In this document: positions 4,139-32,471 of the stretch, piece by piece | Numbering within the stretch: the first letter of the stretch is position 1 | Layout: each line of letters begins with the position of its first letter | Made by a program: the position numbers and the translations under genes | Notes under the pieces: model-generated | The model's input: the letters and a program-made list of their open reading frames with translations, nothing else | Told to the model about the DNA's origin: nothing | The model's database searches: none | From: Candidatus Thioglobus sp. | GTDB lineage: Bacteria; Pseudomonadota; Gammaproteobacteria; PS1; Pseudothioglobaceae | Direction: 5' to 3' | NCBI GenBank assembly: GCA_028345055.1 | Contig: JAOMCO010000013.1 | Location: 1-32,471 of the forward strand | Length of the DNA stretch: 32,471 bases

Positions 4139-4141
4139 GTT

Positions 4142-9268: not shown

Positions 9269-9415
9269 TAAGTTTGTAGATTATTTTTTGAATTCAAATT
9301 TTACTATGCGGTAAGACATCAGATATATAAGTCGTTAATAAAAAAAGATTAAGCTTGAATAATAAACATAAAAACACAGCAAAACGGTATTATGTTTTTA
9401 TTTTTTTGAATAATT

Positions 9416-9841: not shown

Positions 9842-9849
9842 GATTAGAT

Positions 9850-10506
9850 ATGAGTATTTCAGAAGATACAAAAGAATTAAATTCGTATATTAATGAGAGA
9901 GTTGATATTGACTCTGTTGCCTCTTTTAAGGGCAATGAACATATCGTAAAACTAAAGCTTAAATTTGATATTGAGAAAATAAGAAAGGCTCTAGACACCA
10001 TTAAAGCTGGTTCAGAGTTTAAGACTGCTGCATCTGGTTTTCATGCTCTAGCAATGACTCAAAGAAAAAATAGTTCTGCTCAGTCTGATGAAGATTTAGT
10101 GGGGCGATACTACACTCGAACTGATGAAAGCTATCAAGAGACTGCTATGGATGAATTGGTGGATGAGGCATCCTTCTGTGAGCTTGTTGATATATTCAAG
10201 GGTACATATTTTGAAACAATATACACTGAGCTAACTGATCGATATCCAATTGGTAGGGTCCGTATTCTTGAAAAAGATAGCTTTAACTGCAACTCTTGGC
10301 ATAGGGATCCAGAGCCAAGGCTACACATTCCAATTTACACCAATCCCGGCTCACTATTCATAGTGAACCATCATTGCACTCACCTTCCAGCAGATGGATC
10401 TGTATACTTTACTGATACGCGTGGCTACCATACTGCGCTTAATGGAGGATATAAACCCAGAACTCATCTAGTAGCAACATTGGCCTATCCTGAGTATAAG
10501 CCCTAG
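9850..10506 (+). CDS. Aspartyl/asparaginyl beta-hydroxylase-like Fe(II)/2-oxoglutarate dioxygenase
   Basis: A 218-residue protein whose C-terminal half fits the Asp/Asn beta-hydroxylase fold. It shows an HxD iron-binding pair in NSWHRDPEPRLHIPI (His151, Asp153), a distal His194 in TRGYHTALNGG, and Arg204 in KPRTHLVATL as the probable 2-oxoglutarate anchor. This spacing and the HIPIYTNPG strand after HxD are typical of the family. No signal peptide or membrane segment is visible, so it is cytoplasmic. The N-terminal 100 residues are not recognisable. It lies 8 bases after hemJ and 12 before a threonine aldolase gene. The target (a free amino acid, peptide or protein) cannot be told. Confidence 0.7.
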   Translation: MSISEDTKELNSYINERVDIDSVASFKGNEHIVKLKLKFDIEKIRKALDTIKAGSEFKTAASGFHALAMTQRKNSSAQSDEDLVGRYYTRTDESYQETAMDELVDEASFCELVDIFKGTYFETIYTELTDRYPIGRVRILEKDSFNCNSWHRDPEPRLHIPIYTNPGSLFIVNHHCTHLPADGSVYFTDTRGYHTALNGGYKPRTHLVATLAYPEYKP

Positions 10507-10518
10507 AATTTTATAGCT

Positions 10519-11580: not shown

Positions 11581-11585
11581 CCAGT

Positions 11586-12356
11586 TTAACTAAGAACCTG
11601 ATCTAAAAATGCCTTTGTTCGATTATTTTTGGGGTTATTAAAGAATTCTTCTGGAGTGTTCTGTTCTACAATTTCACCTTCATCCATAAAGATTATTCTA
11701 TCAGCAACCTGTTTTGCAAAGCCCATTTCATGAGTGACACAAATCATCGTCATTCCACTTTCTGCGAGCTCAACCATCGTATCCAATACTTCAGAAACCA
11801 TTTCTGGATCAAGGGCAGAGGTAGGCTCATCAAAAAGCATTACTTTTGGTTGCATACATAAACTTCTTGCAATTGCAACACGTTGTTGTTGTCCACCAGA
11901 GAGTTGTTCAGGGTATTTATCAGCTTGTTCTGGAATCTTGACCTGTTTAAGTAATGCCATTGCTCTCTCTTTTGCTTCATTTTGATCAATTCCTCTGACC
12001 CAATTTGGCCCTGCCATGCAGTTTTCAAGAACAGTTAGGTGTGGGAATAAATTAAAACTTTGAAAGACCATACCAATATCTTGTCGAACAGTATCAATAT
12101 CTTTCATTCTTTCGTGAAGTTCAATACCAGTAACAGTTATTTGTCCTTCCTGATGGGCTTCTAATCGATTAAGGCATCTAATTAATGTAGATTTTCCAGA
12201 ACCAGATGGACCGCAAATGACAATTTTTTCTTTAAGTTTAATCTCTAAGTCAATATTTTTTAAAGCTTGAAAATCCTCATACCATTTACTTACACTTTTG
12301 AGAGATATTATTGGTTTATCTTCTGAATTTGTCTGCATTTTAATATTATTAGCCAT
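11586..12356 (-). CDS. Polar amino-acid ABC importer ATP-binding protein (GlnQ/AapP family)
   Basis: Cytoplasmic ATPase of a polar amino-acid importer, last gene of a three-gene minus-strand operon (binding protein, permease, ATPase). The 256 residues carry Walker [10 protein letters not shown] (49-57), Q-loop in [10 protein letters not shown], signature LSGGQ (152-156), Walker B MLFDEP (173-178), TSALDPEM and the switch His in [17 protein letters not shown] near the C-terminus is the usual ending of this family. It starts 2 bases after the permease stop. The exact amino acid is not predictable; glutamate, aspartate or general L-amino acid uptake is typical. Confidence 0.93.
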
Positions 12357-17653: not shown

Positions 17654-17777
17654 TTTTGTTTTTTATAAATTCGAATGCGACATTATACCAACCAGTGAAA
17701 ATGACTCACTAGAAATCATGTTTAAAAATGTTGTTGTAGCAAATGAGCTGTATAAATGAGTAATCTTTAAAAAGAGT

Positions 17778-19232
17778 TTATTTTAGACCACCCATGCAGA
17801 TGTATTTGAGCTCCATGAAGTCATCGATCCCATAGTGAGAGCCTTCTCTTCCGAGTCCAGATTCCTTAACACCTCCAAATGGAGCAACTTCATTAGATAT
17901 AACACCTTCATTAATTCCAACCATACCATATTCTAAAGCCTCAGAGACTCGCCAGATTCGGTTGATATCTTTTGTATAGAAGTAAGAGGCTAGTCCAAAC
18001 TCAGTATCATTTGCAAGTTTAATTGCCTCATCTTCTGTTTTGAATTTGAAAACGGGAGCTAGAGGTCCAAAAGTTTCTTCAGAGGCCATTTTCATGGAAG
18101 TATCAACATTACTTATGACAGTTGGTTCGAACATCGTACCACCGTTCTCATGAGGTTTTCCACCTGCAACAATGACCGCTCCTCTATCAACTGCATCAGC
18201 CAAATGATCCTTAACCTTATCTAGTGCTTTAAAACTTATAAGAGGACCTTGATTCACACCTTCATCCATTCCATAGCCTACATTAAGTGTCTCTACTGCT
18301 TCACCCAGTTTTTTAACAAATCTATCGTAAATACCTTCCTGGACAATAAAGCGATTTGTGCAAACACAGGTTTGCCCGGTATTTCTGAATTTAGAAATCA
18401 GTGCACCAGATACTGCTGAATCTAGATCTGCATCATCAAAAACTATAAAGGGTGCGTTACCCCCAAGCTCCATCGATACTTTTTTCATTGTATCAGCACA
18501 GTTTCGAGTAAGGATTTTTCCAACAGCGGTCGAGCCTGTAAAAGAAAGTTTGCGAACAATTGGGCTATCAGTCAATGCCTTTCCAATCTCACTTGAGTTG
18601 GTTCCAACAACAACATTTAAAATGCCTTCAGGAATCCCAGCTTGCTCTGCAAGCTCTGCAATAGCAAGTGCTGATAAAGGAGTCTCAGCGGCAGGCTTAA
18701 TGACAACTGGGCAGCCTGCTGCTAGAGCAGGTGCGCATTTTCTTGTAATCATTGCTATCGGAAAATTCCATGGAGTAATTGAGGCTACAACACCAATTGG
18801 CTGCTTTATAACTAAAATCCTTCTATCATTGGATGGAGTTGGGATAATATCTCCATAGGTTCTCTTGCCTTCTTCAGCAAACCATTCAATGAATGATGCC
18901 CCATAGCCAACCTCTCCTCTTGCTTCAGCAATTGGTTTTCCTTGTTCAGCTGTCATTAATATAGCAAGATCTTCTTGATTTGCCATAATCAGGTCAAACC
19001 ACTTTTTAAGAATAATAGCTCTCTCTTTGGCTGTTCTAGCTCTCCATGAAGGCCATGCATTATTGGCTGCATCAATGGCCTCATTTGTCTCTTTTTTACC
19101 CATGTCTGGTAAAGTGATAATAACCTCATTCGAATAGGCATTTGTGACATCAAAGCGTGATTTTGCATCATCACCAACCCACTTACCGTTGACATAGCCA
19201 TGCCCTTTGAGAAGACTAGAGTTCGTTAACAT
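17778..19232 (-). CDS. gabD: NAD(P)-dependent succinate-semialdehyde dehydrogenase (GabD type)
   Basis: Oxidises succinate semialdehyde to succinate, feeding GABA carbon from putrescine breakdown into the TCA cycle. The 484 residues show PWNFPIAMITRK, FTGSTAVGK (231-239), the general-base Glu255 in SMELGGNAPF, and catalytic Cys289 in GQTCVCTNR. The second cysteine two residues later is typical of GabD. LMTAEQGKPIAEARGEV and GASFIEWFAEEGKRTYGD are strongly GabD-like rather than PuuC-like. It lies 82 bases behind the diamine importer on the same strand. As the only aldehyde dehydrogenase in the window, it may also accept gamma-glutamyl-aminobutyraldehyde or glutarate semialdehyde (inference). 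Confidence 0.9.
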   Translation of the reverse strand: MLTNSSLLKGHGYVNGKWVGDDAKSRFDVTNAYSNEVIITLPDMGKKETNEAIDAANNAWPSWRARTAKERAIILKKWFDLIMANQEDLAILMTAEQGKPIAEARGEVGYGASFIEWFAEEGKRTYGDIIPTPSNDRRILVIKQPIGVVASITPWNFPIAMITRKCAPALAAGCPVVIKPAAETPLSALAIAELAEQAGIPEGILNVVVGTNSSEIGKALTDSPIVRKLSFTGSTAVGKILTRNCADTMKKVSMELGGNAPFIVFDDADLDSAVSGALISKFRNTGQTCVCTNRFIVQEGIYDRFVKKLGEAVETLNVGYGMDEGVNQGPLISFKALDKVKDHLADAVDRGAVIVAGGKPHENGGTMFEPTVISNVDTSMKMASEETFGPLAPVFKFKTEDEAIKLANDTEFGLASYFYTKDINRIWRVSEALEYGMVGINEGVISNEVAPFGGVKESGLGREGSHYGIDDFMELKYICMGGLK

Positions 19233-19268
19233 TTGTAATCCTTATTCTTATTTGATTGAAAGACGACA

Positions 19269-19274
19269 ATTATA
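19269..19274 (-). promoter_or_regulatory. Candidate -10 element for gabD
   Basis: A consensus TATAAT is read on the minus strand 36 bases upstream of the gabD ATG, inside the 82-base gap after potI. The matching -35 is poor (a GGGACA-like hexamer at 19 bases), so gabD may have its own weak promoter or may simply be read from the importer operon. Confidence 0.3.
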
Positions 19275-19314
19275 ATAGCCTAGAGAGAAAAAGTGTCCCT
19301 GAAACCTATTAGAA

Positions 19315-20103
19315 TTAGATCGTTTGTTGTTTTTGCTTCCTACCAATGATCGAAGCAGTTATAACGCCGAGTGTCACCAACCCAACAAGTATCGTTGAAA
19401 CTGCATTGATTTCTGGCGTAACTCCTAGTCTTACCATTGAATAAATCTTCATGGGTAGAGTTGTAGAGCCTGGTCCTGACGTAAAGCTTGCAATAACCAA
19501 GTCATCAAGGGATAGAGTGAAAGATAAAAGCCAGCCAGCAATTACTGCCGGAAGAATAATTGGAAGCGTGATTAACATAAAGGTTCTAAAAGGGGTACAA
19601 CCTAAATCAAGCGCTGCCTCTGTGATGCTATCATCATAACTTGACATTCTGGATTGAATGACGACCGCGACATAGCACATTGAAAAGGTTATATGAGCAA
19701 GAGTTACGGTAAATACTCCTCTATCAACGGCAAGTGCAACAAACATCAGTAAGGTCGATAGACCAATAATAACTTCAGGCATTACCATTGGAGCGTAGAT
19801 CATTCCAGAAAAAAGAGTTCTGCCCCTAAAACTCCCAAAACGAGTCATTACCAAGCCTGCAATTGTCCCAAGAATCGTTGCTACAGTAGAGGATATAAAA
19901 GCAACCTTGATCGTTACCCATGCCGCATCCTTTATGCCCTGATTTTGCATGAGTTCACCATACCACTTTGTAGAGAATCCACCCCAGACAGTTACTAGTC
20001 TTGATTCATTAAAACTAAATAAAATCAGCAATATAATTGGAATATATAGAAAAGAAAATCCAATCACTAGGGCGGCAATATTGAAGCTTCCAAACTTTTT
20101 CAT
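19315..20103 (-). CDS. potI: Putrescine/spermidine ABC importer permease (PotI/PotC/SpuH type)
   Basis: Second inner-membrane permease of the diamine importer, 262 residues with about six membrane segments. The first is IAALVIGFSFLYIPIILLILFSF-like (split here: IAALVIGFSFLYIPI). The ATPase-contact loop EAALDLGCTPFRTFMLITLP (161-180 region) and the ending SFTLSLDDLVIASF are classic PotC/PotI. It overlaps the potH gene by four bases (20100-20103). Function is inferred from family and from the adjacent binding protein. Confidence 0.92.
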   Translation of the reverse strand: MKKFGSFNIAALVIGFSFLYIPIILLILFSFNESRLVTVWGGFSTKWYGELMQNQGIKDAAWVTIKVAFISSTVATILGTIAGLVMTRFGSFRGRTLFSGMIYAPMVMPEVIIGLSTLLMFVALAVDRGVFTVTLAHITFSMCYVAVVIQSRMSSYDDSITEAALDLGCTPFRTFMLITLPIILPAVIAGWLLSFTLSLDDLVIASFTSGPGSTTLPMKIYSMVRLGVTPEINAVSTILVGLVTLGVITASIIGRKQKQQTI

Positions 20104-21017
20104 GATATTGCCTTTTCTTGTGACTTTTGATAGAGCATAATCGGCACCACAAGCAAGGCCAACAATATAATAGCTACCGCTGAGGCAACAGGCCAGTCTC
20201 GGTTATAGAAGAATTCTGTCCATAACACTTTACCAATCATCAAAGTTTCTGAACCTCCTAGAAGGTCTGGAATAACAAACTCACCCATGACAGGAATAAA
20301 GACCAAAAAGCATCCAGCTAGAATACCCGGAAGTGAGAGTGGAATAGTCACAGTCCAAAAAGTTTTAAAGGGTCTGCACCCTAAATCTGCTGCCGCCTCC
20401 AATAGACTCATATCCATTTTTTCTAAGTTGGCATAAAGAGGCAAAATCATAAAAGGAAGATACGAATATACAATTCCAATATAAACAGCAAGATCAGTAT
20501 TCATAATGATTAGAGGCTTATCTATAATCCCAATTGATATTAAAGCTAAGTTTAATAGACCTTCAGTTTTAAGGATTCCAATCCAAGCATAAACCCTAAT
20601 TAAAAAAGAAGTCCAGAAGGGCAGAATAACAAGCATCAATAATATACCTCTCCAGCGACTTGGAGCTTTGGCTACGCTGTATGCAATTGAATATCCAATA
20701 ATTAAAGTCAAAATTGTTGAGATAATTGCAATTTTTAAACTAGATAGATAAGCTTTAATATACAAAGAGTCGCTAAATAAAAATAGGTAACTTTCAAGAC
20801 TGGCACGAATTGATGGAAGTAAAGAGTTGCCCCATTCAAAAAGAGCAGTGTAAGGAGGTATAGCCATAATTGGCTCTGCAAGACTAATCTTTAAAACAAA
20901 GATAAATGGCAACATAAAAAACATTAACAGCCATAAATACGGGATTGCAATGACAGCTCGCCTACCATTAAAAATGGATTTTAAGAGACTTTGAGTTTTT
21001 CGAGAGTTACTGATCAT
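20100..21017 (-). CDS. potH: Putrescine/spermidine ABC importer permease (PotH/PotB/SpuG type)
   Basis: First permease of the diamine importer, 305 residues, with an amino-terminal cytoplasmic stretch, a membrane segment near 20-45 and five further segments. The EAA loop EAAADLGCRPFKTFWTVTIP and GEFVIPDLLGGSETLMIGK are family landmarks; the latter is nearly invariant in PotB/PotH. It begins 3 bases after the ATPase stop and overlaps potI, so the transport genes are translationally coupled. Confidence 0.92.
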   Translation of the reverse strand: MISNSRKTQSLLKSIFNGRRAVIAIPYLWLLMFFMLPFIFVLKISLAEPIMAIPPYTALFEWGNSLLPSIRASLESYLFLFSDSLYIKAYLSSLKIAIISTILTLIIGYSIAYSVAKAPSRWRGILLMLVILPFWTSFLIRVYAWIGILKTEGLLNLALISIGIIDKPLIIMNTDLAVYIGIVYSYLPFMILPLYANLEKMDMSLLEAAADLGCRPFKTFWTVTIPLSLPGILAGCFLVFIPVMGEFVIPDLLGGSETLMIGKVLWTEFFYNRDWPVASAVAIILLALLVVPIMLYQKSQEKAIS

Positions 21018-21020
21018 ATT

Positions 21021-22151
21021 TTAAGAGAGTAGAACAACCACTGAGTGCGGCTCCCAATGAAGATAGACTTCATCCTCCCATGTTAGGTGATGCTCCTCAG
21101 TCCTGACTCGATTTGCACGAATAGCTTTGAGAATTCTGCCATTATCTAGCCTGACATGATAGGTTGAAAAGCTACCTCCATAGGCAATATCCTCTATCCT
21201 ACCCTTTAAAATATTATGCTGATTAGTAGGCTTCTTTTTTGATATTTCAAGTTTTTCAGGTCTGATTGCAAACCACATTTCATCTCCAGTTGATGCACCG
21301 ACCTCTTGTGTTGCAAACACAATCGAGTTTGCATCATCTGAATGGAGTTGAGTACCTACTTCATTTTGGCCTTTATAGATGCCTCTTAGAAGATTGACAT
21401 CTCCTATAAAGTCAGCTACATCCTTATTTACAGGAGCTTCATAAATCTCTGTTGGTGTTGCAACTTGAATCAAGTTTCCTGAGTCCATAACTCCAATTCG
21501 ACTTGAAACTGTCATAGCCTCCTCTTGATCATGAGTTACGATGACAAAAGTGACTTCAAGTTTTTCTTGTATATCCATGAGTTCAAACTGAGTTTGTTCT
21601 CTGAGTCTTTTATCAAGAGCTCCCAGGGGCTCATCTAGAAGTAATAATTTTGGTTGTTTTGCTAAACTTCTTGCAAGCGCAACTCGCTGACTTTGACCTC
21701 CAGAAAGTTGATTAGGTTTTCTCTTGGCAAAATCTGTAAGTTCAACTAGCTCGAGCATTTCTTCAACCCTTTGACTGATTTTATTTGGAGGAAGATTATC
21801 TTGCTTTAGCCCAAAAGCGATATTTTTCTCAACAGTCATATGAGGAAATAAAGCGTAGGATTGAAACATCATATTGATTGGTCTAAGGTGAGGCGGTATT
21901 TCAGAGATATCTTCACCATCTAGAAGTATCCTTCCATCAGTTATTTTCTCAAATCCCGCAAGCATTCGAAGTAGGGTTGTCTTGCCACAGCCAGAGGGAC
22001 CTAGTAATGAGAAAAACTCATTCTTATAAATATCTAAATTGAGGCTATCAATAGCAGTGAAATCACCGAATTTTTTAGTGACATTTTCAATTTGAATATA
22101 AGGCTTTTCAGACGCATTAAGCCACGGAGAAGCTGATAACGTTTCAGACAT
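21021..22151 (-). CDS. potG: Putrescine/spermidine ABC importer ATP-binding protein (PotG/PotA/SpuF type)
   Basis: Cytoplasmic ATPase of the diamine importer, 376 residues. Walker A GPSGCGKTT (51-59), Q-loop Gln97 in MMFQSYALFPH, signature LSGGQ (149-153), Walker B LLLLDEPLGALD (169-180) and switch His in VTHDQEEAM are intact. The C-terminal third (about 250-376) is a TOBE-type regulatory domain (FAIRPEKLEIS, GGSFSTYHVRLDNG). A strong stem-loop lies between this gene and the upstream binding-protein gene. Confidence 0.94.
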   Translation of the reverse strand: MSETLSASPWLNASEKPYIQIENVTKKFGDFTAIDSLNLDIYKNEFFSLLGPSGCGKTTLLRMLAGFEKITDGRILLDGEDISEIPPHLRPINMMFQSYALFPHMTVEKNIAFGLKQDNLPPNKISQRVEEMLELVELTDFAKRKPNQLSGGQSQRVALARSLAKQPKLLLLDEPLGALDKRLREQTQFELMDIQEKLEVTFVIVTHDQEEAMTVSSRIGVMDSGNLIQVATPTEIYEAPVNKDVADFIGDVNLLRGIYKGQNEVGTQLHSDDANSIVFATQEVGASTGDEMWFAIRPEKLEISKKKPTNQHNILKGRIEDIAYGGSFSTYHVRLDNGRILKAIRANRVRTEEHHLTWEDEVYLHWEPHSVVVLLS

Positions 22152-22175
22152 AATTGCAAATTTAAGAAGAAATAA

Positions 22176-22202
22176 CCTTCATGATGCAATGCATCATGAA
22201 GG
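22176..22202 (-). promoter_or_regulatory. Strong 13-bp stem-loop between potF and potG
   Basis: 22176-22188 and 22190-22202 form a perfect 13-base inverted repeat around a single central base, so in RNA an 11-bp or longer stem with a tight loop. It sits in the 67-base gap after the binding-protein stop and before the ATPase start, and no clean U-run follows. The position fits an intra-operon mRNA-stabilising or partially terminating hairpin that raises binding-protein output over the membrane components, as known for other binding-protein operons. Confidence 0.65.
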
Positions 22203-22218
22203 TAGTATGGAACTATTA

Positions 22219-23310
22219 CTACTGACCAGTAGTAACCTTAGTCCAAGTTCTAGTAATCACTCTTTGTGATTTTGCATCATAGGTAGGGCTAATGTATAAG
22301 CCTGCCATGACTTCAGGCGTTGGATAGACAGCAGGATCATTCAACAGATCTTCTTCTAATAACGGCTGTGATGCTAAGTTACCATTTGCATACCAAACAT
22401 AGTTTGTTGCAGTAGCAATCTGCTCAGGATCCATTATCCAGTTGATATACTTATGAGCATTAGCAGTATTTGGCGCATCCTTTGGAACTGCTAACTGATC
22501 AAACCACATTAGAGCACCTTCTTCAGGGATTGAGTAGACAATTTCGACACCATTTTCTGCATCCCAGGCCGCATATTGAGCCATGAATATATCACCTGAC
22601 CAACCAACTACAAGGCAAATATCTCCATTTGCAAGGGCATCGATGTATTGAGATGAATGGAACTTTTGAATGTGTGGGCGAACTTTTGTAAGAACAGCTT
22701 CCGCTTTAGCTATGACATCCTTATCAGTGCTTCTTGGATCTTCACCAAGATATGCAAGCGCTGCAGGTATGATTTCAGTTGGCGCATTTAGTAAGTGGAC
22801 ACCGCAGTCTGCAAACTTAGAGACCACATCTGGATCAAATACCATCGCAAGAGATGATGTTGGAGCGTTCTCCATTCTTTCGTTAATCATTCCTTCGTTG
22901 TAACCGATTCCAGTTGTCCCCCACATATAGTTTACTGAGTAATCATTCAAAGGGCCAAATTGTGCAACCTGTTCTTCAATATCACTCCACATGTTTCCGA
23001 TATTTGATAATTTTGATTTATCAAGTTTTTGGAAAACACCAGCTTGAATTTGACGAGCTAAAAAGCTACTTGATGGAACTACAACATCGTATCCAGAGCC
23101 ACCAGCAAGAAGCTTCGCCTCTAGAACCTCATTTGAGTCAAATACGTCATAAACTACTTTAATTCCTGTTGCAGCAGTGAAGTCATCATTGACTTGCTCA
23201 TCAATATAATCTGACCAGTTCAAGACATTAACAACCTCTTCTGCAACTACCGCTTGAGCTGAAAATGTTAGTGCTCCAGCTATGAGCAGTCGATTTAACT
23301 TATTTTTCAT
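22219..23310 (-). CDS. potF: Periplasmic putrescine-binding protein (PotF/SpuD type)
   Basis: Periplasmic receptor delivering diamines to the PotGHI complex, 363 residues. A signal peptide (MKNKLNRLLIAGALTFSAQA, cleavage near residue 23) precedes VLNWSDYID. There Trp32, Asp34 and Tyr35 match the amine-binding residues of PotF/PotD. GWSGDIF (Trp237, Asp240) and Asp271 in WFDQLAVP match further ligand residues known in PotF, favouring polyamines. A GGAG-type ribosome site precedes the ATG. The 98-base gap to the upstream gene suggests an additional promoter, but none is convincing. Putrescine versus spermidine or cadaverine preference cannot be decided by eye. Confidence 0.92.
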   Translation of the reverse strand: MKNKLNRLLIAGALTFSAQAVVAEEVVNVLNWSDYIDEQVNDDFTAATGIKVVYDVFDSNEVLEAKLLAGGSGYDVVVPSSSFLARQIQAGVFQKLDKSKLSNIGNMWSDIEEQVAQFGPLNDYSVNYMWGTTGIGYNEGMINERMENAPTSSLAMVFDPDVVSKFADCGVHLLNAPTEIIPAALAYLGEDPRSTDKDVIAKAEAVLTKVRPHIQKFHSSQYIDALANGDICLVVGWSGDIFMAQYAAWDAENGVEIVYSIPEEGALMWFDQLAVPKDAPNTANAHKYINWIMDPEQIATATNYVWYANGNLASQPLLEEDLLNDPAVYPTPEVMAGLYISPTYDAKSQRVITRTWTKVTTGQ

Positions 23311-23408
23311 TTTTTTTTCTCCTTTTATTTTTTACTTTTAACTAATTTGATTATATTAAATTTTTATATTTAATACTCACCTTTTTTTAAAATACAATCA
23401 AGTTTATA

Positions 23409-24770
23409 TTAAAGATGTCTTAAATATGAATTGTATTCAAAATCTGTAACCGTACTTTCAAACCTATTTATTTCATGCTCTTTCACAACCTTAAAAGATT
23501 TTTGAAACTGCTCACCAAAAAATTCTTTTACAGTCCTTGATTGACTAGTCTTATCAATTGCCTCTCGCCAAGTTATTCCTAATTCAGCTTTATGCTGGGC
23601 ATGAGCATTCCCAACTGTTTCCTTATCAAGAGGGTATTTATTTTCAATTCCTGAGAGCACGCTTGAGAGGATTGATGCAAAAACTAAATAAGGGTTAGAG
23701 TCTGCACTCGCAAGTCTAAATTCTAATCTTGTTGCACTTTCTGAGGCATCTGGAATTCTGATTAGTGCTGTTCTATTTTCATTACCCCAGCTGAGCGTTG
23801 TTGGAGCATGATCCGCATTATGAATAAGCCTCCTATAGGAGTTTGAATGCGATGCATAAAACGATAGAAAGTCAGGAGTTGTTTTTAGAAGACCAGCAAT
23901 TGCATCTGCAAAAATACCTTTTGGCTGATCATTAGAATCCAGTTTAAAAAGGTTATTCCCTTTTTTATCAATAATACTTAGATGAGCATGCATTCCATTG
24001 CCCGCCTCATCAGAAAAGGGTTTTGCCATAAAGGTTGCATTGAGATTAAATTGTTTAGCGCAGTTCTTTATTGATCTTTTCATTAAAAACGCTTGATCAG
24101 CCATCAAGAGAGGGTCATCATGATGAAGTAAATTGATTTCAAACTGACCGGGAGCACACTCTGCAATAGCGGTTTCAGAAGGGATGCCAAGTGCTTTTGC
24201 ACTTTTATCAACCAAATCAAAGAAATCTTCAAAATCATCCATAACATTTAGGTTAAGTAACTGGACTTCTCTATAGCGCCTGTTCGTTCCAGGAATCAAG
24301 GGCATTTGTGGATGACCATGTTTCGTGAGCTGTTTATCAATTAAATAAAACTCCATTTCAGGTGCTATGACTGGCCTCATTCCAAGCTCATCAAAACGAT
24401 TGAGTACACTTTTTAATATGTTTCGAGAATCGGCATAGATTGCTTTACCATCGGCATCTTCCATGCTGACAAGGCACTGCGCAGTTTTATTGGAGCTCCA
24501 AGGCGTCAATGCCAGTGAATTTTCAACAACTCGACAAGTTGCGTCACCATCTCCTGTTGTCATAACGAGTCCTGTACCCTTAGGATTGTCACCCCAAATA
24601 TCAAGAACATAGCTTGAAACAGGCATTTTTAATCCACCATCAACTGCCTTAATCAGTGTTTTGGGTGAGGCACTCTTACCTCTTGCAATACCATTAAAAT
24701 CGACATAAATAAATTCAATTTTTTTTAGCTCAGGGTTTGCACTGAGAAATTTCTCTGCAAAGTTTTTCAT
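23409..24770 (-). CDS. puuA: Gamma-glutamylpolyamine synthetase, glutamine-synthetase family (PuuA/SpuB type)
   Basis: Expected to ligate glutamate to putrescine (or another amine) with ATP, first step of the gamma-glutamyl route. The 453 residues have the GS fold marks: metal-binding Glu138/Glu140 in APEMEFYLID, AECAPGQFEINL (203-214), His261 in NGMHAHLS, and NRTALIRIP with RLEFRLASADSNPYL. The adenylylation motif of housekeeping GlnA is missing and the short N-terminal beta-grasp fits PuuA-like proteins. It heads the minus-strand importer operon and faces the SpuC-type transaminase gene. The amine specificity is inferred from this context. Confidence 0.88.
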   Translation of the reverse strand: MKNFAEKFLSANPELKKIEFIYVDFNGIARGKSASPKTLIKAVDGGLKMPVSSYVLDIWGDNPKGTGLVMTTGDGDATCRVVENSLALTPWSSNKTAQCLVSMEDADGKAIYADSRNILKSVLNRFDELGMRPVIAPEMEFYLIDKQLTKHGHPQMPLIPGTNRRYREVQLLNLNVMDDFEDFFDLVDKSAKALGIPSETAIAECAPGQFEINLLHHDDPLLMADQAFLMKRSIKNCAKQFNLNATFMAKPFSDEAGNGMHAHLSIIDKKGNNLFKLDSNDQPKGIFADAIAGLLKTTPDFLSFYASHSNSYRRLIHNADHAPTTLSWGNENRTALIRIPDASESATRLEFRLASADSNPYLVFASILSSVLSGIENKYPLDKETVGNAHAQHKAELGITWREAIDKTSQSRTVKEFFGEQFQKSFKVVKEHEINRFESTVTDFEYNSYLRHL

Positions 24771-24934
24771 AAATTAACTTAATTTTATAGTTTAGTACTA
24801 GATTATTTCAAGACAAAATATGAAATAATTATTGCTAGAAAGTAAAAAAAGATTACACTATATCATCTAATTATAAAAGACAAAATGTATTAATTATTTT
24901 TATGCATTGATTTCAAATTATTTAAGGAAAAGAT
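24771..24934. promoter_or_regulatory. Divergent control region of the diamine island
   Basis: A 164-base very AT-rich gap between the divergent puuA-like and transaminase genes, which must carry promoters for both arms. It holds a 9-base perfect inverted repeat with a 10-base spacer (24802-24810 and 24821-24829), centred where a dimeric repressor could control both directions. A TTGCTA / TACACT pair (24832 and 24854, 16-base spacer) is a possible plus-strand promoter. No regulator gene for this arm is visible in the island. Confidence 0.4.
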
Positions 24935-26308
24935 ATGTCTGCAAGTACATCAGCTCTTCAGCAAAAAAATGCTAAGCACCTCATTCAATCATTCAGTGAC
25001 TTAAGTTATATTAAAAATCCTGAGTCAACCCATATCATCAGTCGCGCTGATGGAGTTTATATTTATGATAACGATGGCAAGAAAATTCTAGATAGTATGT
25101 CTGGATTATGGTGCGTCAATATGGGTTATGGTCAGCATTCAATTATTGATGCAGTCAATGAACAAATGAAGGAGCTTGTTTACTACAATAACTTTTTTGG
25201 TTCGAGCCATCCATCTGCTATAAAGCTATCTGAAATGATTGCTAACAAAACACCAGAAGGAATGAATAAGGTTTATTTCTGTGGCTCTGGTTCTGAGGCA
25301 AATGATACTGTTGTTAGGCTAGCAAGACACTACTGGGCTGCAAGGGGAAAGCCTTCTAAATCGGTGATTATCAGTCGAACAAATGCTTACCATGGCTCAA
25401 CAATGGCTGGAGCTAGTTTGGGCGGTATGAGTGCTATGCACGCACAGGGCGGCTTACCAATAGCAGATATTGAGCATATTGATCAACCCTATTATTACGA
25501 TGCTTGCGTTGAGGCTGGCGGAAAGATTGATGTGGATGAATTTGGACTAAAAATAGCTCAAAGCTTAGCTAAAAGAATTGATGAGCTTGGTGAAGACCGT
25601 GTTGCTGCATTCATTGCAGAACCAATTCAAGGTGCAGGAGGAGTTATTATCCCACCAAAAACTTATTGGCCTGAGATTAGCAGAATTTGTAAGGAGAGAG
25701 ATATTCTCTTAGTGGCTGATGAGGTGATTTGTGGTTTTGGAAGGACTGGAGAATGGTTCGGTTCTGGTCACTTTAACTTTAAGCCTGATTTGATGCCATT
25801 TGCTAAGGGTGTAACCTCAGGGTATCTTCCAGTTGGTGGAGTCATTGTAAGAGATGATATAGTCGATGTCCTTGCTGCAGCTAATCAAGAATTTGCACAC
25901 GGTTATACCTATTCTGGGCACCCAGCTTGCATGGCTGCTGCTGTTGCTAATCTCGAGTTAATGGAAAATACAAATATACTGGACCAAGTCAAAAATACTA
26001 CGGCTCCTTATTTAGCTAGCAAGTGGAAGGATCTAGAAAATCATCCTTTGGTGGGTGAGGCTAGGCAACTTGGAATGCTTGCAGCAATTGAGATAGTTAA
26101 GGACAAAGAGCACTGTAAAAGGTTTGAAAATAGTGCTGAGATAGTTGGTAAGTGTCGTGATTTTTGTTATGAAAATGGCATAGTCATGAGAGCAATCAAA
26201 ACCAAGATGGTTATAGCGCCTCCGTTAATTTGTAATAATGATCACATTGATGAAATTATTGAGAAAGTATGGAAATGTCTTGATTTGACAGCTCAGTCGA
26301 TCAAATAG
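24935..26308 (+). CDS. spuC: Putrescine-pyruvate aminotransferase (SpuC type, class III)
   Basis: PLP-dependent class III transaminase, 457 residues, expected to transfer the amino group of putrescine (or cadaverine/GABA) to pyruvate, giving aminobutyraldehyde and alanine. Marks are GLWCVNMGYGQ (58-66), the cofactor phosphate loop GSGSEANDT (117-125), AYHGST, Asp262 in ADEVICGFGRTG, and the Schiff-base Lys291 in PFAKGVTSGYLPVGG. These segments are SpuC-like rather than GabT-like. A good AAGGA ribosome site precedes the ATG. It is the first gene of the plus-strand arm and no separate GabT is seen, so it may also act on GABA (inference). Confidence 0.88.
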   Translation: MSASTSALQQKNAKHLIQSFSDLSYIKNPESTHIISRADGVYIYDNDGKKILDSMSGLWCVNMGYGQHSIIDAVNEQMKELVYYNNFFGSSHPSAIKLSEMIANKTPEGMNKVYFCGSGSEANDTVVRLARHYWAARGKPSKSVIISRTNAYHGSTMAGASLGGMSAMHAQGGLPIADIEHIDQPYYYDACVEAGGKIDVDEFGLKIAQSLAKRIDELGEDRVAAFIAEPIQGAGGVIIPPKTYWPEISRICKERDILLVADEVICGFGRTGEWFGSGHFNFKPDLMPFAKGVTSGYLPVGGVIVRDDIVDVLAAANQEFAHGYTYSGHPACMAAAVANLELMENTNILDQVKNTTAPYLASKWKDLENHPLVGEARQLGMLAAIEIVKDKEHCKRFENSAEIVGKCRDFCYENGIVMRAIKTKMVIAPPLICNNDHIDEIIEKVWKCLDLTAQSIK

Positions 26309-26317
26309 TTTTTTAGA

Positions 26318-27586
26318 GTGCAATCATATTACCAGGCTACAAGAAATTTTGAAATAGACCAGCCTGCTCTTAAAGGCGATCATGAGGTAGATGTTTGCAT
26401 CATTGGTGGTGGCTATACTGGCCTTTCATCTGCCCTTTATCTAGCTAATGAGGGAGTCAATGTTCTTCTTATTGAGTCTAACAAAATAGCGTCAGGAGCC
26501 TCTGGAGCAAATGGTGGGCAAGTTTCTGGTGGAATGAGAAGAGATCAATTTTATTTGGAAAAAGCTTTAGGGTTTGATAAAGCCAAGGCTTTATGGGGTA
26601 TAGGAGAAGAGTCAAAATATCATGCAAAAGGTTTGATTGATAAATATCAAATTAAGTGTGACTACAAGAAGGGAATCGCTCATCCAAATCATAAGCAGAA
26701 ATATTGTGAAGAATCAAAGCAATATGTTGATCATATGATTAATAAATATGATTACAAAGATATGGTTTATTTAAATGACAACCAAATGAGAGAGGTCACT
26801 GGTTCAGATTCCTATTATGGCGGAAGTTTTGATGAGGGGGAAGCGCACTGTCACCCACTCAATTATGCTCTAGGTATTGCAAAGGCTAGCCTTTCAGCAG
26901 GTGCAAAAATCTTTGAAAATACTGCTGCAATAGGATACAAGGTCCATGATAGTTGCGTAAGAGTTGAGACGCAGAAGGGTTCTATTAAAGCTGATCGCCT
27001 CATTCTTGCTTGTAATGGGTATCTTGGTAACCTTGAGAAGCGCTTAACCTCAAAAATCTTGCCAATGAACAATTATATTGTTGCAACTGAGCCACTTGGC
27101 GATGAAATGGCTCGTAAAATAAATCCTCGTGATATTGCTTTTGCTGACTCAAGATTTGTCATTAATTACTTTCGTTTAAGTGCAGATAAGCGACTACTTT
27201 TTGGTGGTGGAGAAAATTACTCTAAAGACTTATCCAACAATATAGTGCCTATCGTGACCAAACCTTTAGAAAAAATTTATCCCTTCCTTAAGGGAATCAA
27301 AATCGACTATGCATGGGGTGGAAAGCTTGCAATAACCATGAATCGTCTTCCATTCTTTACTTCACTTTATAATGATAAGGTTATTTCGGCACAAGGCTAC
27401 TCAGGTCAAGGCGTTGCTTTGGCAAGCTATTCAGGAAAAATAGTTTCTGAGAAAATAACTGGTGATGGGAAAACTTTTGATATTATGTCCAGTATTCCAA
27501 GAAAAAGCTTTCCTGGAGGTAGATTTTTACGAAACCCAAGCATGAAGATTGGTATGCTTTACTACTCTTTATTAGACAGAATCTAA
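26318..27586 (+). CDS. puuB: FAD-dependent gamma-glutamylputrescine oxidase (PuuB/DAO family)
   Basis: A 422-residue flavin oxidoreductase of the D-amino-acid-oxidase superfamily. The dinucleotide motif is DVCIIGGGYTGLSSALYLA (25-43), followed by the family region KIASGASGANGGQVSGG. In a PuuA-like context it should oxidise the free amine of gamma-glutamylputrescine to the aldehyde with release of ammonia and hydrogen peroxide. The C-terminal GYSGQGVALASYSGK closes the FAD site. The start is GTG at 26318, 9 bases after the transaminase stop. No ATG lies nearby and the N-terminus then fits the family. The substrate is inferred from neighbours. Confidence 0.85.
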   Translation: MQSYYQATRNFEIDQPALKGDHEVDVCIIGGGYTGLSSALYLANEGVNVLLIESNKIASGASGANGGQVSGGMRRDQFYLEKALGFDKAKALWGIGEESKYHAKGLIDKYQIKCDYKKGIAHPNHKQKYCEESKQYVDHMINKYDYKDMVYLNDNQMREVTGSDSYYGGSFDEGEAHCHPLNYALGIAKASLSAGAKIFENTAAIGYKVHDSCVRVETQKGSIKADRLILACNGYLGNLEKRLTSKILPMNNYIVATEPLGDEMARKINPRDIAFADSRFVINYFRLSADKRLLFGGGENYSKDLSNNIVPIVTKPLEKIYPFLKGIKIDYAWGGKLAITMNRLPFFTSLYNDKVISAQGYSGQGVALASYSGKIVSEKITGDGKTFDIMSSIPRKSFPGGRFLRNPSMKIGMLYYSLLDRI

Positions 27587-27598
27587 AGGAAAAAGTAA

Positions 27599-28567
27599 AT
27601 GAGTATTGATGACTTTGAAGATATAAACACTGACCAGGCTTTTACCAAAAAAAGCCTATATGGCAGATCAAATGAGATGACCTATGGTGGAGCTCTAAGT
27701 TTTCTTAGGCGCAAATACACAAAAGATTTAAAGGGTGTTGATATTGCAGTCAGTGGTATCCCTTATGATGCTGCAACTAGTTTCAGGCCAGGTGCAAGAT
27801 TTGGTCCTAAGGCTATAAGAGAAGCATCCGTTCAGCTTGCTGAGTTGCTAGCTTTTCCTGATGGAATCGATCCATTTAAGACTTTAGCTGTCACAGATTA
27901 TGGAGATTGTGAATTAGATTATGGTTTTCATGGCAATGTTATTTCTGAGATTGAAAATCATGCTAAAACTATATTGGATTCTGGAGCTGAAATGCTTACT
28001 TTTGGCGGTGATCATTTTGTGACTTATCCGCTATTAAGGGCCCATGCAGAAAAGTATGGACCTATTGCCCTTGTTCATTTTGATGCGCATACTGATTCTT
28101 GGCCTGATGAAGACGGTAGACTTGATCACGGAACTATGTTCTCCAGAGCAATTAAAGAGAATTTAATTGATACTAAGCATTCTATCCAAATTGGAATCAG
28201 AACGCATAACAGTAATACAAAAGGGGTCACTATTCTTGATGCTCCTTGGGTTCATGAAAATGGTATTAACAAGGTGATCAATAAAATTATTGATGTTGTG
28301 AAAGACGCTCCTGCATATCTGACTTTTGATATTGATGGTCTTGATCCTGCCTATGCTCCAGGAACTGGTACGCCAGTTTCAGGTGGACTGACTTCAGCTC
28401 AGGCACTAGGAATTATTAGGGGCTTAGAGGGTTTAAATTTTATAGGGGCAGACGTTGTAGAGGTTGCACCAGCTTATGACCATGCCGATATTACAGCTAT
28501 TGCAGCAGCAACTATTGCTCATGACTACCTAGTATTAAGAGCAAAACAAAAGAATAAAAAAACATAA
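27599..28567 (+). CDS. speB: Agmatinase / ureohydrolase family
   Basis: Hydrolyses agmatine to putrescine and urea with a binuclear Mn centre. The 322 residues carry all ligand positions: His139 in GGDHFVTYP, Asp162, His164 and Asp166 in HFDAHTDSW, and Asp244/Asp246 in TFDIDGLDPAYAPGTG. The preceding AAAGGA-like ribosome site and 12-base gap from puuB indicate one operon. Guanidinobutyrase (releasing GABA) is an alternative within the same fold that the island would also accommodate. Sequence marks alone do not separate the two with certainty. Confidence 0.88.
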   Translation: MSIDDFEDINTDQAFTKKSLYGRSNEMTYGGALSFLRRKYTKDLKGVDIAVSGIPYDAATSFRPGARFGPKAIREASVQLAELLAFPDGIDPFKTLAVTDYGDCELDYGFHGNVISEIENHAKTILDSGAEMLTFGGDHFVTYPLLRAHAEKYGPIALVHFDAHTDSWPDEDGRLDHGTMFSRAIKENLIDTKHSIQIGIRTHNSNTKGVTILDAPWVHENGINKVINKIIDVVKDAPAYLTFDIDGLDPAYAPGTGTPVSGGLTSAQALGIIRGLEGLNFIGADVVEVAPAYDHADITAIAAATIAHDYLVLRAKQKNKKT

Positions 28568-28579
28568 TCATTATAAATT

Positions 28580-29293
28580 ATGAAAATAGGAATACTTTTA
28601 GTTGGAAGAGCTTCAGAGGATTTAGTAGAGAAGTACGGAACATATGCTGAAATGCTTATTGCACTGATTAACTCAGAAGGCCAGAACTTTGAATTCAAAA
28701 CATTTAATATTCTTGATTCTGTGTTTCCAGAAAATCATTCAGTTTGCGATGGCTGGATAGTAACAGGGTCTCCCCATGGTGTTTATGAGGATCACTCATG
28801 GATTCCAACTGTAAGTCAGCTGATCAATGATATCTATAATGCTAATATGCCCATTTTTGGAGTCTGCTTTGGACATCAATTGATTGCTCAGGCTCTTGGT
28901 GGGCATGTTGAAAAATCAATTAAGGGTTGGGGTTTAGGACTTCACACTTATAAAATTCACAACAGTGCAAGCTACATGGGTAATTTGTCAGAAGAGTTGA
29001 CTCTAAATATTTGTCATCAAGATCAGGTTCTTCAGTTGCCAGAGAATTCAACTCTCTATGCATCTTCAGAATTTTGTGAAAATGCTGGCTTTTATATCAA
29101 GGATAAAGTTTTAACAATGCAAGCTCATCCAGAATTTGAGGTTGAGTTTATAGTGGCATTGCTAAATGCTCGACGAGAGGTCATCATTCCAAAAGAATTT
29201 ACAGATCCCGCACTTAAGAAGCTTAAGGATGAGCCTAAAAGTGTTCAGTCAACTCAGTTTGCTCAGACTATAAGGCAGTTTTTTTTAGGTTAG
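28580..29293 (+). CDS. Class I glutamine amidotransferase-like hydrolase (possible gamma-glutamyl hydrolase)
   Basis: A 237-residue stand-alone class I amidotransferase domain resembling the GMP-synthase glutaminase half. The triad is intact: Cys96 in FGVCFGHQLIAQALGG, with His183 and Glu185 in QAHPEFE. VTGSPHGVYED forms the oxyanion-side loop. It lies 12 bases behind speB as the last gene of the plus arm. Diamine operons normally use PuuD/SpuA (peptidase C26) to release GABA from gamma-glutamyl-GABA. This protein has a different domain pattern and may fill that role here (inference). Its stop overlaps the convergent lhgO stop by 9 bases. Confidence 0.75.
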   Translation: MKIGILLVGRASEDLVEKYGTYAEMLIALINSEGQNFEFKTFNILDSVFPENHSVCDGWIVTGSPHGVYEDHSWIPTVSQLINDIYNANMPIFGVCFGHQLIAQALGGHVEKSIKGWGLGLHTYKIHNSASYMGNLSEELTLNICHQDQVLQLPENSTLYASSEFCENAGFYIKDKVLTMQAHPEFEVEFIVALLNARREVIIPKEFTDPALKKLKDEPKSVQSTQFAQTIRQFFLG

Positions 29294-30496
29294 ATTGTTA
29301 TAAGCCTCAGTTGCTTTTTTGGTGATATATTTTCCAATTGGTATTGCAGACGTGGCTGCTGGTGAGGGCGCATTGCAAACATGAATAGAGCGTTTGCTTT
29401 CTGCAAATAAAAAGTCATGGACAAGTGTTCCATCTTCTAATACCGCTTGAGCTCTTATTCCTGCCGGATAAGGCTCTAAATCATTAATCTTAATATTAGG
29501 ACTATATTTTTGCACTTCTTTTAAATACCCTTGTTTAAATATTGAATTTTTCATCTCATAAATACCAGATTTGAGGTTTTTTTTAATGACCCTATGGAAA
29601 CCTTTAAAAGATAAGAATTCGATTGTATCTCGCAAACTAAAATTGAGTTTATTGTAACCCTCACGTTTGAATCCTAGGACTGCATTTGGACCAACTGTAA
29701 TGGTGCCATCAATCATTTTAGTTAAATGCACTCCTAAGAAAGGTAAATCAGGATCAGGAATAGGGTAAACAAGATGTTTAATGAGGCTATTGTGCTTAAT
29801 TGGAAGTCTAAAGTACTCACCTCGAAATGGTATGATTTGGAAATTAATTTTTATATTGAGTAATCTTGCTACTCTATCAGCCATTAATCCAGCACAGCAA
29901 ATTAGGTATTTAGTATTTAAGGATTCACTTGAAGTAATAATCTTAATCTTTTCTTTATCTTCCTCAAGACTAACTACTTCTGAATTAAGAAGAAACTCAC
30001 CACCCTTCGACTCAAATTCCTCTGACATTTTTTTTGTAATTAGTTTATAGTCAACAATCCCTGTGGATTTTACAAAAAGAGCGCTAATACCCATAATATT
30101 AGGCTCGATCTCATTCAGCTGCTTTTGATCTAAGACTTCAACGCTTATCTCATTTGATTTAGATCGCTCGTGCAGCTCATGCATGCGTTTAAGCTCAACT
30201 TGATTTGTAGCAACTAATAATTTTCCGCACTGTTCATAAGGGATATTATTGATTGAGCAGAAGTTAATTGTCTCTTTGAGACCTTCACGACAAAATTGCG
30301 CTTTTAAGCTTCCTGGCTGATAATAAACACCAGAATGGATAACCCCACTATTGTGCCCTGTTTGGTGTTTAGCAAAAGAGCTCTCTTTATCAATTAATAG
30401 AATCTTTTTGTCTGGATGTTTATCAATAAGAGAAAGCGCGGTAGATACGCCTACAATACCTCCACCTAAAACTACATAATCATAAATTTCTTTCAT
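29285..30496 (-). CDS. lhgO: L-2-hydroxyglutarate oxidase/dehydrogenase
   Basis: FAD enzyme oxidising L-2-hydroxyglutarate to 2-oxoglutarate, passing electrons to the quinone pool. The 403 residues show the FAD motif VVLGGGIVGVSTALSL (8-23), the family hallmark TGHNSGVIHSGVYYQPGSLKA (positions 46-66), FRGEYFRLP, and the C-terminal NAPSPAATSAIPIGKYI. It lies directly downstream of the csiD 3' fragment on the same strand (37-base gap), preserving the csiD-lhgO order known from enterobacteria, where it completes glutarate conversion to 2-oxoglutarate. With csiD broken upstream it has lost its native promoter unless another one serves it. Confidence 0.92.
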   Translation of the reverse strand: MKEIYDYVVLGGGIVGVSTALSLIDKHPDKKILLIDKESSFAKHQTGHNSGVIHSGVYYQPGSLKAQFCREGLKETINFCSINNIPYEQCGKLLVATNQVELKRMHELHERSKSNEISVEVLDQKQLNEIEPNIMGISALFVKSTGIVDYKLITKKMSEEFESKGGEFLLNSEVVSLEEDKEKIKIITSSESLNTKYLICCAGLMADRVARLLNIKINFQIIPFRGEYFRLPIKHNSLIKHLVYPIPDPDLPFLGVHLTKMIDGTITVGPNAVLGFKREGYNKLNFSLRDTIEFLSFKGFHRVIKKNLKSGIYEMKNSIFKQGYLKEVQKYSPNIKINDLEPYPAGIRAQAVLEDGTLVHDFLFAESKRSIHVCNAPSPAATSAIPIGKYITKKATEAYNNLT

Positions 30497-30533
30497 TAAT
30501 TAATTGATTTAAAGTGGATTTTCTTTCATTTTA

Positions 30534-31178
30534 TTAAATAAATACTCCTCTTTGGCGAAGAAGTTCTCGGTGAAGGTCTTTATTTGCAAAAAACTTATCT
30601 CTGCCATGTAGCCAAAAATAATTATTGATTATTAACATACTTCCTTCATTTAGTTTGATATTGTATGTGTTAGATTCTCTTTCAAGTGATTCACCCAGCT
30701 CATATAGATATAGTCCCTGAGTCATATTAGCTGGCTCAGCAAATTGATCTATGAAGGATATTATGGGAAGATCTCCATCTTTTTCAATAAAGATTGGATG
30801 TGAGGTTTTATAGTCAATATTTTTACTAGAAGGCGAGCCCCATTGAATATCTTCTTTAGCAACAGGATGGCTATGAAATTTCTCTAACTCTTCCCAGTCA
30901 TCTAAATGTAGAAGAAGTGAACCTCCTCCCTCAACATTTAATTCTAGAATTTTTTGCATAATAACCCAGTCGGTTTTCTCTTTAACGTAAGTACCATCAT
31001 TATGTAGTTCCATTCTTCTATGGGCTTGACGAAGATAACTATCACTATTGTCATCATTTCTTACTGAAAATCGTGCATAAAATTTTCCAGACATTGAGTC
31101 AAGATTTGGCAGACCTATAAGATGTGATATGGCCGTTGAAAGAAGAATATTAAAATCAATAAACTCTTCACATGTAAC
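30534..31178 (-). pseudogene. csiD: csiD (glutarate 2-hydroxylase) 3' part, separated from its 5' end
   Basis: The C-terminal two thirds of the Fe(II)/2-oxoglutarate enzyme CsiD/GlaH. Preserved are FYARFSVRN, the iron ligands in MELHNDGTYV (His31, Asp33 counted from the ATG at 31094), LLLHLDDWEELE, the distal ligand in FWLHGRDKF (His163) and LLRQRG (Arg182, 2-oxoglutarate anchor). Translation upstream of that ATG still reads CsiD (STAISHLIG, LPNLDSM), so the ATG is internal. Similarity to remembered E. coli CsiD starts only near its residue 102, at about 31176. From there to the right the DNA is rppH on the other strand. The 186-residue product from the internal ATG lacks the N-terminal domain and is probably inactive. 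Confidence 0.85.
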
Positions 31179-31180
31179 TC
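31165..31180. other. Head-to-head breakpoint joining csiD and rppH fragments
   Basis: CsiD similarity (minus strand) runs up to about 31176 and RppH similarity (plus strand) begins at about 31174 with VTLIAKT. Both genes lack everything 5' of this point. The joint lies on a 6-base palindrome ACATGT (31170-31175), small enough to be a microhomology. No insertion sequence or target duplication is visible. Confidence 0.8.
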
Positions 31181-31515
31181 TTATAGCTAAAACTCCAAAA
31201 TGGCTCAGGTATGAGCTTCCAAATGAGCATATTCGAAGAACACAAAAACCAACTTGTATCGGGCAGAAACAGGTCTGGTATTTGTTAAAACTTGATACCA
31301 GTGACGAGGAAATATCTCTTGATCTTCATGAAGAAATTGAGTTCGATGACTGGAAGTGGGTTGATTACTGGAAACCAGTTGATGAAGTAATTAATTTTAA
31401 AAGAGATGTTTACGAGGATATGCTAAAGGCACTTGCACCTATTCTTTTTAACAATGAGCATAGCATCCCTACTAAGCTATCAAGACCATTACAATTCAGT
31501 GCCATAAAGTTATAG
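31174..31515 (+). pseudogene. rppH: rppH (RNA pyrophosphohydrolase) 3' part without Nudix box
   Basis: RppH removes pyrophosphate from the 5' end of mRNAs to start decay. Visible are the post-Nudix half: VTLIAKTPKWLRYELP, IRRTQKPTCIGQKQVWYLL, EIEFDDWKWVDYWKP, VINFKRDVYEDML. They match E. coli RppH from about residue 58 onward. The upstream Nudix box with its catalytic glutamates is absent. The bases where it should be encode CsiD on the opposite strand, and an ATG at 31129 with 15 preceding codons is antisense to CsiD. The fragment therefore cannot be a working hydrolase. Its stop overlaps the convergent csiR stop by 6 bases, which looks like a native arrangement. Confidence 0.85.
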
Positions 31516-32178
31516 TTGAGATAAACTCTTTTTAATTATCTCTACTGGGGTCATAATATGCTCCTCAATTAGCTTTGATGAAGACTTTTTATCTCTCTCA
31601 AGAGCCAAAATCATGAGGGCTGCGTGTTCATTTTGATTAATTTTAAGTGTGGCTATATTTGAGACATTCTCTCTAAGCCATAAACTTCGATACCTTTTTG
31701 ATTTTTCAATAAGAGAGCTTCTTATTTGAAAAAGTCTTGGTGACATGCAGCCCGCAACTAATGCCTCATGAAACTCTCCATGGCGACTTTGCCACTCTTC
31801 AACATCTAAATCATTTTCTTTACTGTACTTATTTAATCGGTGCGAGGCAGCTATTACTTTAGCCTCCCAATAGTCATCACCTTTGTCAATAGCCATCTCA
31901 ATACAAAGAGATTCTATCTTTGCTCTTGTTTGATAGATATCTGTTAAGTCTTCAATTGAAATATCACTGACATAGAAACCTTTCTGATTTTTTGAAACAA
32001 CCAAATCTTTTGCAATTAGTTGAGATAAAGCTTCTCTAAGTGGGCTAGTTCCAACATTATATTTTTCTTTTAATGTTTTAATGTGTAACTTTTGTTTAGG
32101 AAGAAATTCACCCGAAATAATATCATTTTTTAATGAGTCAAGTATTTGGGAAGCAGTGTTATCTCTAGAATCAGTCAT
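31510..32178 (-). CDS. csiR: GntR-family (FCD) regulator CsiR/GlaR
   Basis: A 222-residue FadR/FCD-type transcription factor. Residues 10-70 are the winged helix-turn-helix (KNDIISGEFLPKQKL, GTSPLREALSQLIAKDLV, NQKGFYVSD). Residues 78-215 are the all-helical FCD ligand domain with candidate metal/ligand histidines in RHGEFHEALVAGC, NEHAAL and EEHIMTP. The pattern of conserved stretches is close to E. coli CsiR (GlaR), the glutarate-responsive repressor of csiD-lhgO. It is divergent from the csiD 5' end at 32280 with a shared 101-base control region, so it very probably regulates csiD and itself. It looks intact. Confidence 0.88.
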   Translation of the reverse strand: MTDSRDNTASQILDSLKNDIISGEFLPKQKLHIKTLKEKYNVGTSPLREALSQLIAKDLVVSKNQKGFYVSDISIEDLTDIYQTRAKIESLCIEMAIDKGDDYWEAKVIAASHRLNKYSKENDLDVEEWQSRHGEFHEALVAGCMSPRLFQIRSSLIEKSKRYRSLWLRENVSNIATLKINQNEHAALMILALERDKKSSSKLIEEHIMTPVEIIKKSLSQL

Positions 32179-32220
32179 TTATATACAAAAATTAGATCAT
32201 TAAGAAATAGATATTACAGT

Positions 32221-32249
32221 TTGAATTTTATCATAAATGTAGTTATAAT
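32221..32249 (+). promoter_or_regulatory. Sigma70-type promoter of csiD
   Basis: TTGAAT (32221-32226) and a consensus TATAAT (32244-32249) are separated by exactly 17 bases and point at the csiD start 30 bases downstream of the -10. The -10 lies inside the proposed CsiR operator, so binding would block transcription. This is the best promoter in the window. Confidence 0.7.
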
Positions 32250-32268
32250 TAACAAATGTCGACATTTT
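32237..32268. promoter_or_regulatory. CsiR operator: paired ATGT-N5-TNNT sites with a 14-bp palindrome
   Basis: ATGT-N5-TTTT is at 32256-32268 and a near copy ATGT-N5-TAAT at 32237-32249, with 6 bases between them. The first overlaps a perfect 14-base palindrome, AAATGTCGACATTT (32254-32267). From memory, the E. coli CsiR/GlaR sites are TTGT-N5-TTTT and ATGT-N5-TTTT separated by 6 bases, the same architecture. The sites cover the -10 and the expected transcription start of csiD. Confidence 0.6.
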
Positions 32269-32279
32269 AATATTTCATA

Positions 32280-32471
32280 ATGATTTCACACAAAAATAAT
32301 ACTGGATTTAGTCTTTTTAGCCAAAAGGATAGCCCCCGTCTTCAGAAGCTTACAATACATGATGAAATAATTGATAAATTTATCAAATGTACAGAAAAGA
32401 TTGATGTTCAGTCAATTGAATATAAGCCATTTCTTCGTTTTTATATTGCCAACCGTCTCAACGAGCTTACA
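32280..32471 (+). CDS. csiD: csiD (glutarate 2-hydroxylase) 5' end, runs off the window
   Basis: Sixty-four codons from ATG 32280 are open to the window end. The reading NTGFSLFSQKDSPRLQKLT followed by VQSIEYKPFLRFYIANRL matches the N-terminus of CsiD as remembered from E. coli (SGFTL, SPRLLELT, ALEYKSFLRF). It is divergent from csiR with a promoter/operator between them, the expected native 5' end of the gene. The remaining part lies outside. A 3' part of csiD is found on the other strand at 30534-31178, and the two pieces do not overlap in content within the window. Confidence 0.82.
   Translation, partial: MISHKNNTGFSLFSQKDSPRLQKLTIHDEIIDKFIKCTEKIDVQSIEYKPFLRFYIANRLNELT

Follow-up and report, generated by a model that had tools for sequence, protein, structure and literature searches.

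In the Candidatus Thioglobus contig analysed here, csiD (glaH) lies in two pieces on opposite strands and rppH is broken at the same joint. We attribute this arrangement, with a probability of about 0.94, to an inverted chimera that arose while the genome of a single cell was being amplified with phi29 polymerase; this reading is a strong inference and not a proof. Most likely the cell's own genome carries rppH, csiR, csiD and lhgO intact and in their usual order. The window, that is, the whole stretch of DNA analysed (32,471 nucleotides), is the entire contig C5, which ends at 32471, so that there is no sequence beyond this position. A first-pass annotation of the window had preferred a real inversion or a reversible switch and had named an inverted template-switch artefact as the alternative. 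We found no support for its preference. Its alternative agrees with a contig end that lies 94–100 nt from the breakpoint, with traces of trimming at the contig ends and with a second joint of inverted form, which lies in the essential gene murC.

Profile searches identified the gene pieces on either side of the joint (Table 1). With Pfam, bases 30534–31178 of the minus strand matched CsiD at profile positions 88–294 (E = 3.3e-99), and the plus-strand piece at the contig end matched positions 2–54 of the same profile (E = 1.4e-12). The minus-strand piece, named glutarate dioxygenase GlaH by NCBIfam, represents approximately the last two thirds of csiD. The rppH half was assigned by NCBIfam to RNA pyrophosphohydrolase (E = 2.5e-37) at 128 bits, below the cut-off of 139 bits, as expected for half a gene; a Pfam scan of this half assigned no family. 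The profiles thereby bear out the first-pass annotation in its naming of the CsiD and RppH segments, in placing the 3' and 5' parts of csiD on the minus and plus strands, respectively, and in having rppH, matched from model position 65 onwards, broken at the joint with csiD.

Table 1. Features at the joint and in its vicinity (window coordinates).
Feature	Position	Strand	Remarks
lhgO, L-2-hydroxyglutarate oxidase, intact	29285–30496	-	NCBIfam NF008726, 598 bits
csiD (glaH) 3' part	30534–31172	-	In frame, stop codon included; Pfam PF08943, NCBIfam NF002814; partner of the 5' part at 32280–32471
Joint, csiD (minus) to rppH (plus)	31168–31180		Ungapped comparison with G006; palindrome ACATGT at 31170–31175
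rppH 3' part	31174–31515	+	NCBIfam NF001937, model positions 65–158 of 161
csiR, GntR/FCD regulator, intact	31510–32178	-	NCBIfam NF008576, 224.3 bits against a cut-off of 218
csiD 5' part (initial 64 codons), truncated at the contig end	32280–32471	+	Pfam and NCBIfam

The gene fragments at the joint contained no internal stops. Relative to G006, the nearest complete relative, dN/dS was 0.05 for the csiD 3' part and 0.30 for the short 5' part, which was less conserved than the 3' part in all 18 relatives compared; for the rppH 3' part synonymous sites were saturated and dN was 0.093. Intact frames and low dN/dS are compatible with continuing selection on these genes or with a break of very recent date.

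Gene order was compared in related genomes, as the first-pass annotation had proposed, using one genome per species, all from species other than that of the window. All 18 relatives in which csiD matched over nearly its full length had the uninverted order rppH(+) csiR(-) csiD(+) lhgO(+), with lhgO downstream of csiD in every case, and it is this order that a single flip of the window's block restores, rejoining csiD beside lhgO, setting csiR divergent and rebuilding rppH, as had been predicted. In five of the 18 (L037, L039, L040, L047 and L052) csiR was missing between rppH and csiD; these genomes retain csiD and lhgO without the adjoining regulator. The 18 exclude G027, whose contig starts within csiD, and genomes of the genus with no or a weak csiD match. 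When a 401-base probe spanning the joint was searched against 28 other genomes of the genus, none aligned across it; 22 matched on one or both sides, and the six without a match are uninformative. Matches began or ended no more than about 16 nt from the joint; the one exception was a short match of G011 elsewhere in the probe. Among comparable genomes the window's arrangement was thus private to this assembly. Identity to G006 was 82.2% and 81.7% on the two sides of the joint, and this near-equal divergence makes both sides look like the same genome.

Alignment with G006 placed window positions 4209–31171 at 472737–500043 (+) and 31183–32471 at 501424–500138 (-); on G006 the joined pieces are therefore inverted and separated by about 1.4 kb. 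In a base-by-base comparison the csiD side matched up to 31171 and the rppH side from 31171, a position accurate to within a few bases. The distance from the contig end to the csiD breakpoint was 100 nt when measured on 17 of the 18 relatives and 94 nt on G006, whose csiD is shorter by two codons; that the nearest relative gives 94 nt and not 100, with a breakpoint certain to a few bases, counts against the chimera. Very likely the untrimmed contig ended at the csiD breakpoint itself, which a hairpin in the assembly graph would explain and a fixed inversion does not. Complementary bases common to the two breakpoint regions numbered 5–7 within 40 nt in all 18 relatives, the same as in random pairs, and a long shared stretch is therefore not what joined the two regions. 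Likewise, no inverted repeats linking the two breakpoints were found in the relatives' regions, for each of which at least the five longest pairs were inspected. To count the bases shared at 31171 itself, where the sides meet within the palindrome, the unrearranged sequence of this species is needed.

The assembly, of Pseudothioglobus type, consists of 54 contigs with 1,314,976 bases and is 74.4% complete. Its contigs follow a text sort of the numbers 1–54 assigned by falling size with one exception (2090 before 2194), and this one contig of 54 out of size order counts against the chimera. The smallest contig is 2090 nt, and the contig order and this minimum fit one assembly with a 2-kb cut. 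Eleven gaps between neighbouring contig ends were listed on G006, nine of them of 233–445 nt and two of more than 1.6 kb, and no overlap between contig ends was found in the 599,679 of 1,314,976 own bases compared. In the portion of PMC5519541 relevant here, a single-cell pipeline is described that cuts 100 bp off each contig end and retains contigs >2000 bp. Trimming of 2 x 100 nt predicts both gaps of 233–445 nt and the lack of end overlap, and the assembly looks like the product of such a pipeline with end trimming. The contig order, the 2-kb cut and the end-gap pattern all agree with this origin, from which we infer phi29 amplification of the sample.

A second inverted joint was found on contig C41 (L172), in which miaA (bases 2–326) is joined inversely to murC and its neighbours (314–3073). 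The joint lies at 314–326, a stretch of 13 nt covered by both alignments. In G006 the pieces are located at 503789–504113 (-) and 510631–513381 (+), 6.8 kb apart, and in G028 the miaA and murC pieces stand in the same relation, also apart. The murC gene on C41 was the sole copy found when the own genome was searched at the DNA level; its product has 449 residues compared with 469 for MurC of G006, the C-terminal end being replaced where miaA begins. At a distance of about 140 nt from the joint, contig C26 resumes. Because walled bacteria require murC, it is very improbable that a living cell carries the C41 joint, which is likely to be the same kind of artefact as the joint on C5. A census against G006, which set 599,679 of 1,314,976 own bases against 1.2 of its 1.71 Mb, took in 93 of 108 contig ends, the other 15 being 3' ends of long contigs; 54 of the 93 aligned, and only contigs matching the compared 1.2 Mb were judged. 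In this partial census C5 and C41 had the only local inverted joints; further breaks of colinearity with G006 occurred on, among others, C4, C13, C16, C27, C30, C32 and C34.

Joints of this kind are known from amplified single cells. In the part of the study by Lasken and Stockwell (2007; PMC1855051) that concerns chimera structure, 475 chimeras from one amplified Escherichia coli cell are reported, of which 406 were inverted, 337 of these joining segments <10 kb apart, with at least 2 complementary bases at the joint in 76.8% of cases. The C5 joint likewise connects two unique segments of one genome in inverse orientation; the separation is below 10 kb in both of our cases, about 1.4 kb on C5 and 6.8 kb on C41, and the C5 joint was absent from independent genomes (0 of 28, 22 of them comparable). 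The length of complementary stretch taken as characteristic of such a joint was 2–21 nt. On this model, a 3' end that was being extended out of lhgO into csiD would have been displaced at about csiD codon 96–98 and would have reannealed, via a few complementary bases, inside rppH some 1.4 kb further on. Extension would then have run back the other way through the rppH 3' part, csiR and the csiD 5' part, and then a second time through csiD and lhgO. Such a product would form a hairpin in the assembly graph with sequence already used as its sole exit, the contig would stop at the csiD breakpoint, and trimming of 100 bp from the end would leave it 94–100 nt short of that point.

The missing parts of the two genes were sought elsewhere in the assembly. 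A family profile search of the assembly, of which the 74.4% completeness has to be kept in mind, did not recover the rppH 5' part, and the corresponding search for csiD gave one weak match on C1 (23.5 bits). A DNA search with the neighbours of rppH found miaA pieces on C26 and C41 and nothing between there and rppH; as this search overlooked the window's own rppH 3' piece, short pieces can escape it. No intact rppH or csiD was found elsewhere in the incomplete assembly, and neither a second lhgO copy nor a rejoined csiD was seen, all of which counts against the chimera. Two candidates for rppH were rejected. The C1 match in the family search (26.6 bits) belongs to a 309-residue protein of a different kind, a frame at 1468–2397 of L004, which we take to have a MutT-type Nudix start followed by a thiamine-phosphate-synthase-type domain. 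The C10 match, obtained in a protein search of part of the own genome, covered 25 residues and was too weak for rppH.

It appears improbable that a true inversion of about 1.4 kb, broken within csiD and within rppH, has become fixed and has cost the cell both enzymes. Such an inversion has in its favour that a single flip accounts for the gene pieces and that the assembly yielded no intact csiD or rppH. However, it requires that a contig end happened to fall no more than about 100 nt from the second breakpoint, for which the chance is about 0.6% for a 150-nt stretch (54 one-direction contig ends in 1.31 Mb), and the second such joint, cutting murC and miaA, again has a contig end about 140 nt away. 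The conserved, stop-free csiD 3' part also speaks against it, although a recent break would look alike, as does the failure to see the inversion in 28 other genomes of the genus, 22 of them comparable. As the joint is most likely an artefact, no loss of the glutarate hydroxylase or the mRNA-decapping enzyme is to be inferred.

Fainter still is the prospect of a reversible DNA switch, with both orientations present in the cell or population and breaking the assembly graph at both ends; we give equally little credence to a real, polymorphic flip by which some cells would shut down CsiD, and with it glutarate hydroxylation, at the same time as RppH and mRNA decapping. Mixed orientations would also explain a contig end at the breakpoint, and the joint carries a 6-nt palindrome. 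Against this, in 18 of 18 relatives no inverted match lying within 40 nt of the breakpoints was longer than random stretches give, so that inverted repeats at both block ends were not found there (the window has one end only). The two orientations were not both present among the 18 relatives or the 28 genus genomes, none of the latter, 22 of them comparable, having the flipped form. One state of the switch would moreover cut both enzymes. Among 15 window segments scanned against Pfam there was no recombinase match. A misassembly of metagenome reads without amplification is similarly far-fetched. Many of the relatives are metagenome-assembled genomes, which favours it, but the contig order is consistent with a single assembly and not with a bin, with the proviso that bins may be renumbered. 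Assemblers seldom join unique sequence wrongly, and bases 31000–32471 occur once in the own genome, with no long inverted repeat at the relatives' breakpoints. The amplification chimera accordingly remains our preferred reading, and csiD and rppH should be treated as unassembled in this genome and not as lost. Two of 54 contigs with inverted joints, breaking four genes in a census of part of the genome, call for caution in inferring gene loss or rearrangement from this assembly. An inverted joint with its partner breakpoint about 100 nt past a trimmed contig end is suggested as a flag for such errors.

Other features of the window were observed in passing. Within 17778–31172 the csiD–lhgO pair adjoins an apparent cluster for polyamine uptake and breakdown, the genes of which are presumably a transporter, a glutamine-synthetase-like gene, a class III aminotransferase, an FAD oxidoreductase and an agmatinase-like gene; this position may link diamines to glutarate and 2-hydroxyglutarate. 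Bases 1–4208, encoding dipeptide-type ABC transporter ATPases and an S15-family peptidase, had no match in the 1.2 of 1.71 Mb of G006 compared. Parts of the G006 region at 703–716 kb were found in other contexts, on L165 (C34) at 6179–11756 and on L136 (C4) at 17718–20000, and L161 (C30) skips this region, as if an island had been split up or moved in this genome. In the minus-strand reading frame at 7922–9268, which we take to be FtsY-like, an acidic stretch about 30 residues long is duplicated in tandem, the two copies being nearly identical.

Other Pseudothioglobus-type rppH–csiR–csiD–lhgO regions contain the same genes as the window, the nearest being about 82% identical in DNA, and most of the 18 relatives also share its neighbours (GATase, agmatinase-like and FAD oxidoreductase genes). 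The relatives have a whole csiD and no joint, whereas in the window the csiD–csiR–rppH block is reversed and cut at both ends. The C5 joint stands in a finished contig and its amplification is deduced from the assembly, whereas the chimeras in the consulted portion of PMC1855051 were observed in reads of amplified DNA. In structure, the C5 joint and the inverted chimeras described in that portion are alike: two segments of the same genome, in inverse orientation, <10 kb apart and, for the C5 joint probably, with at most a few shared bases.
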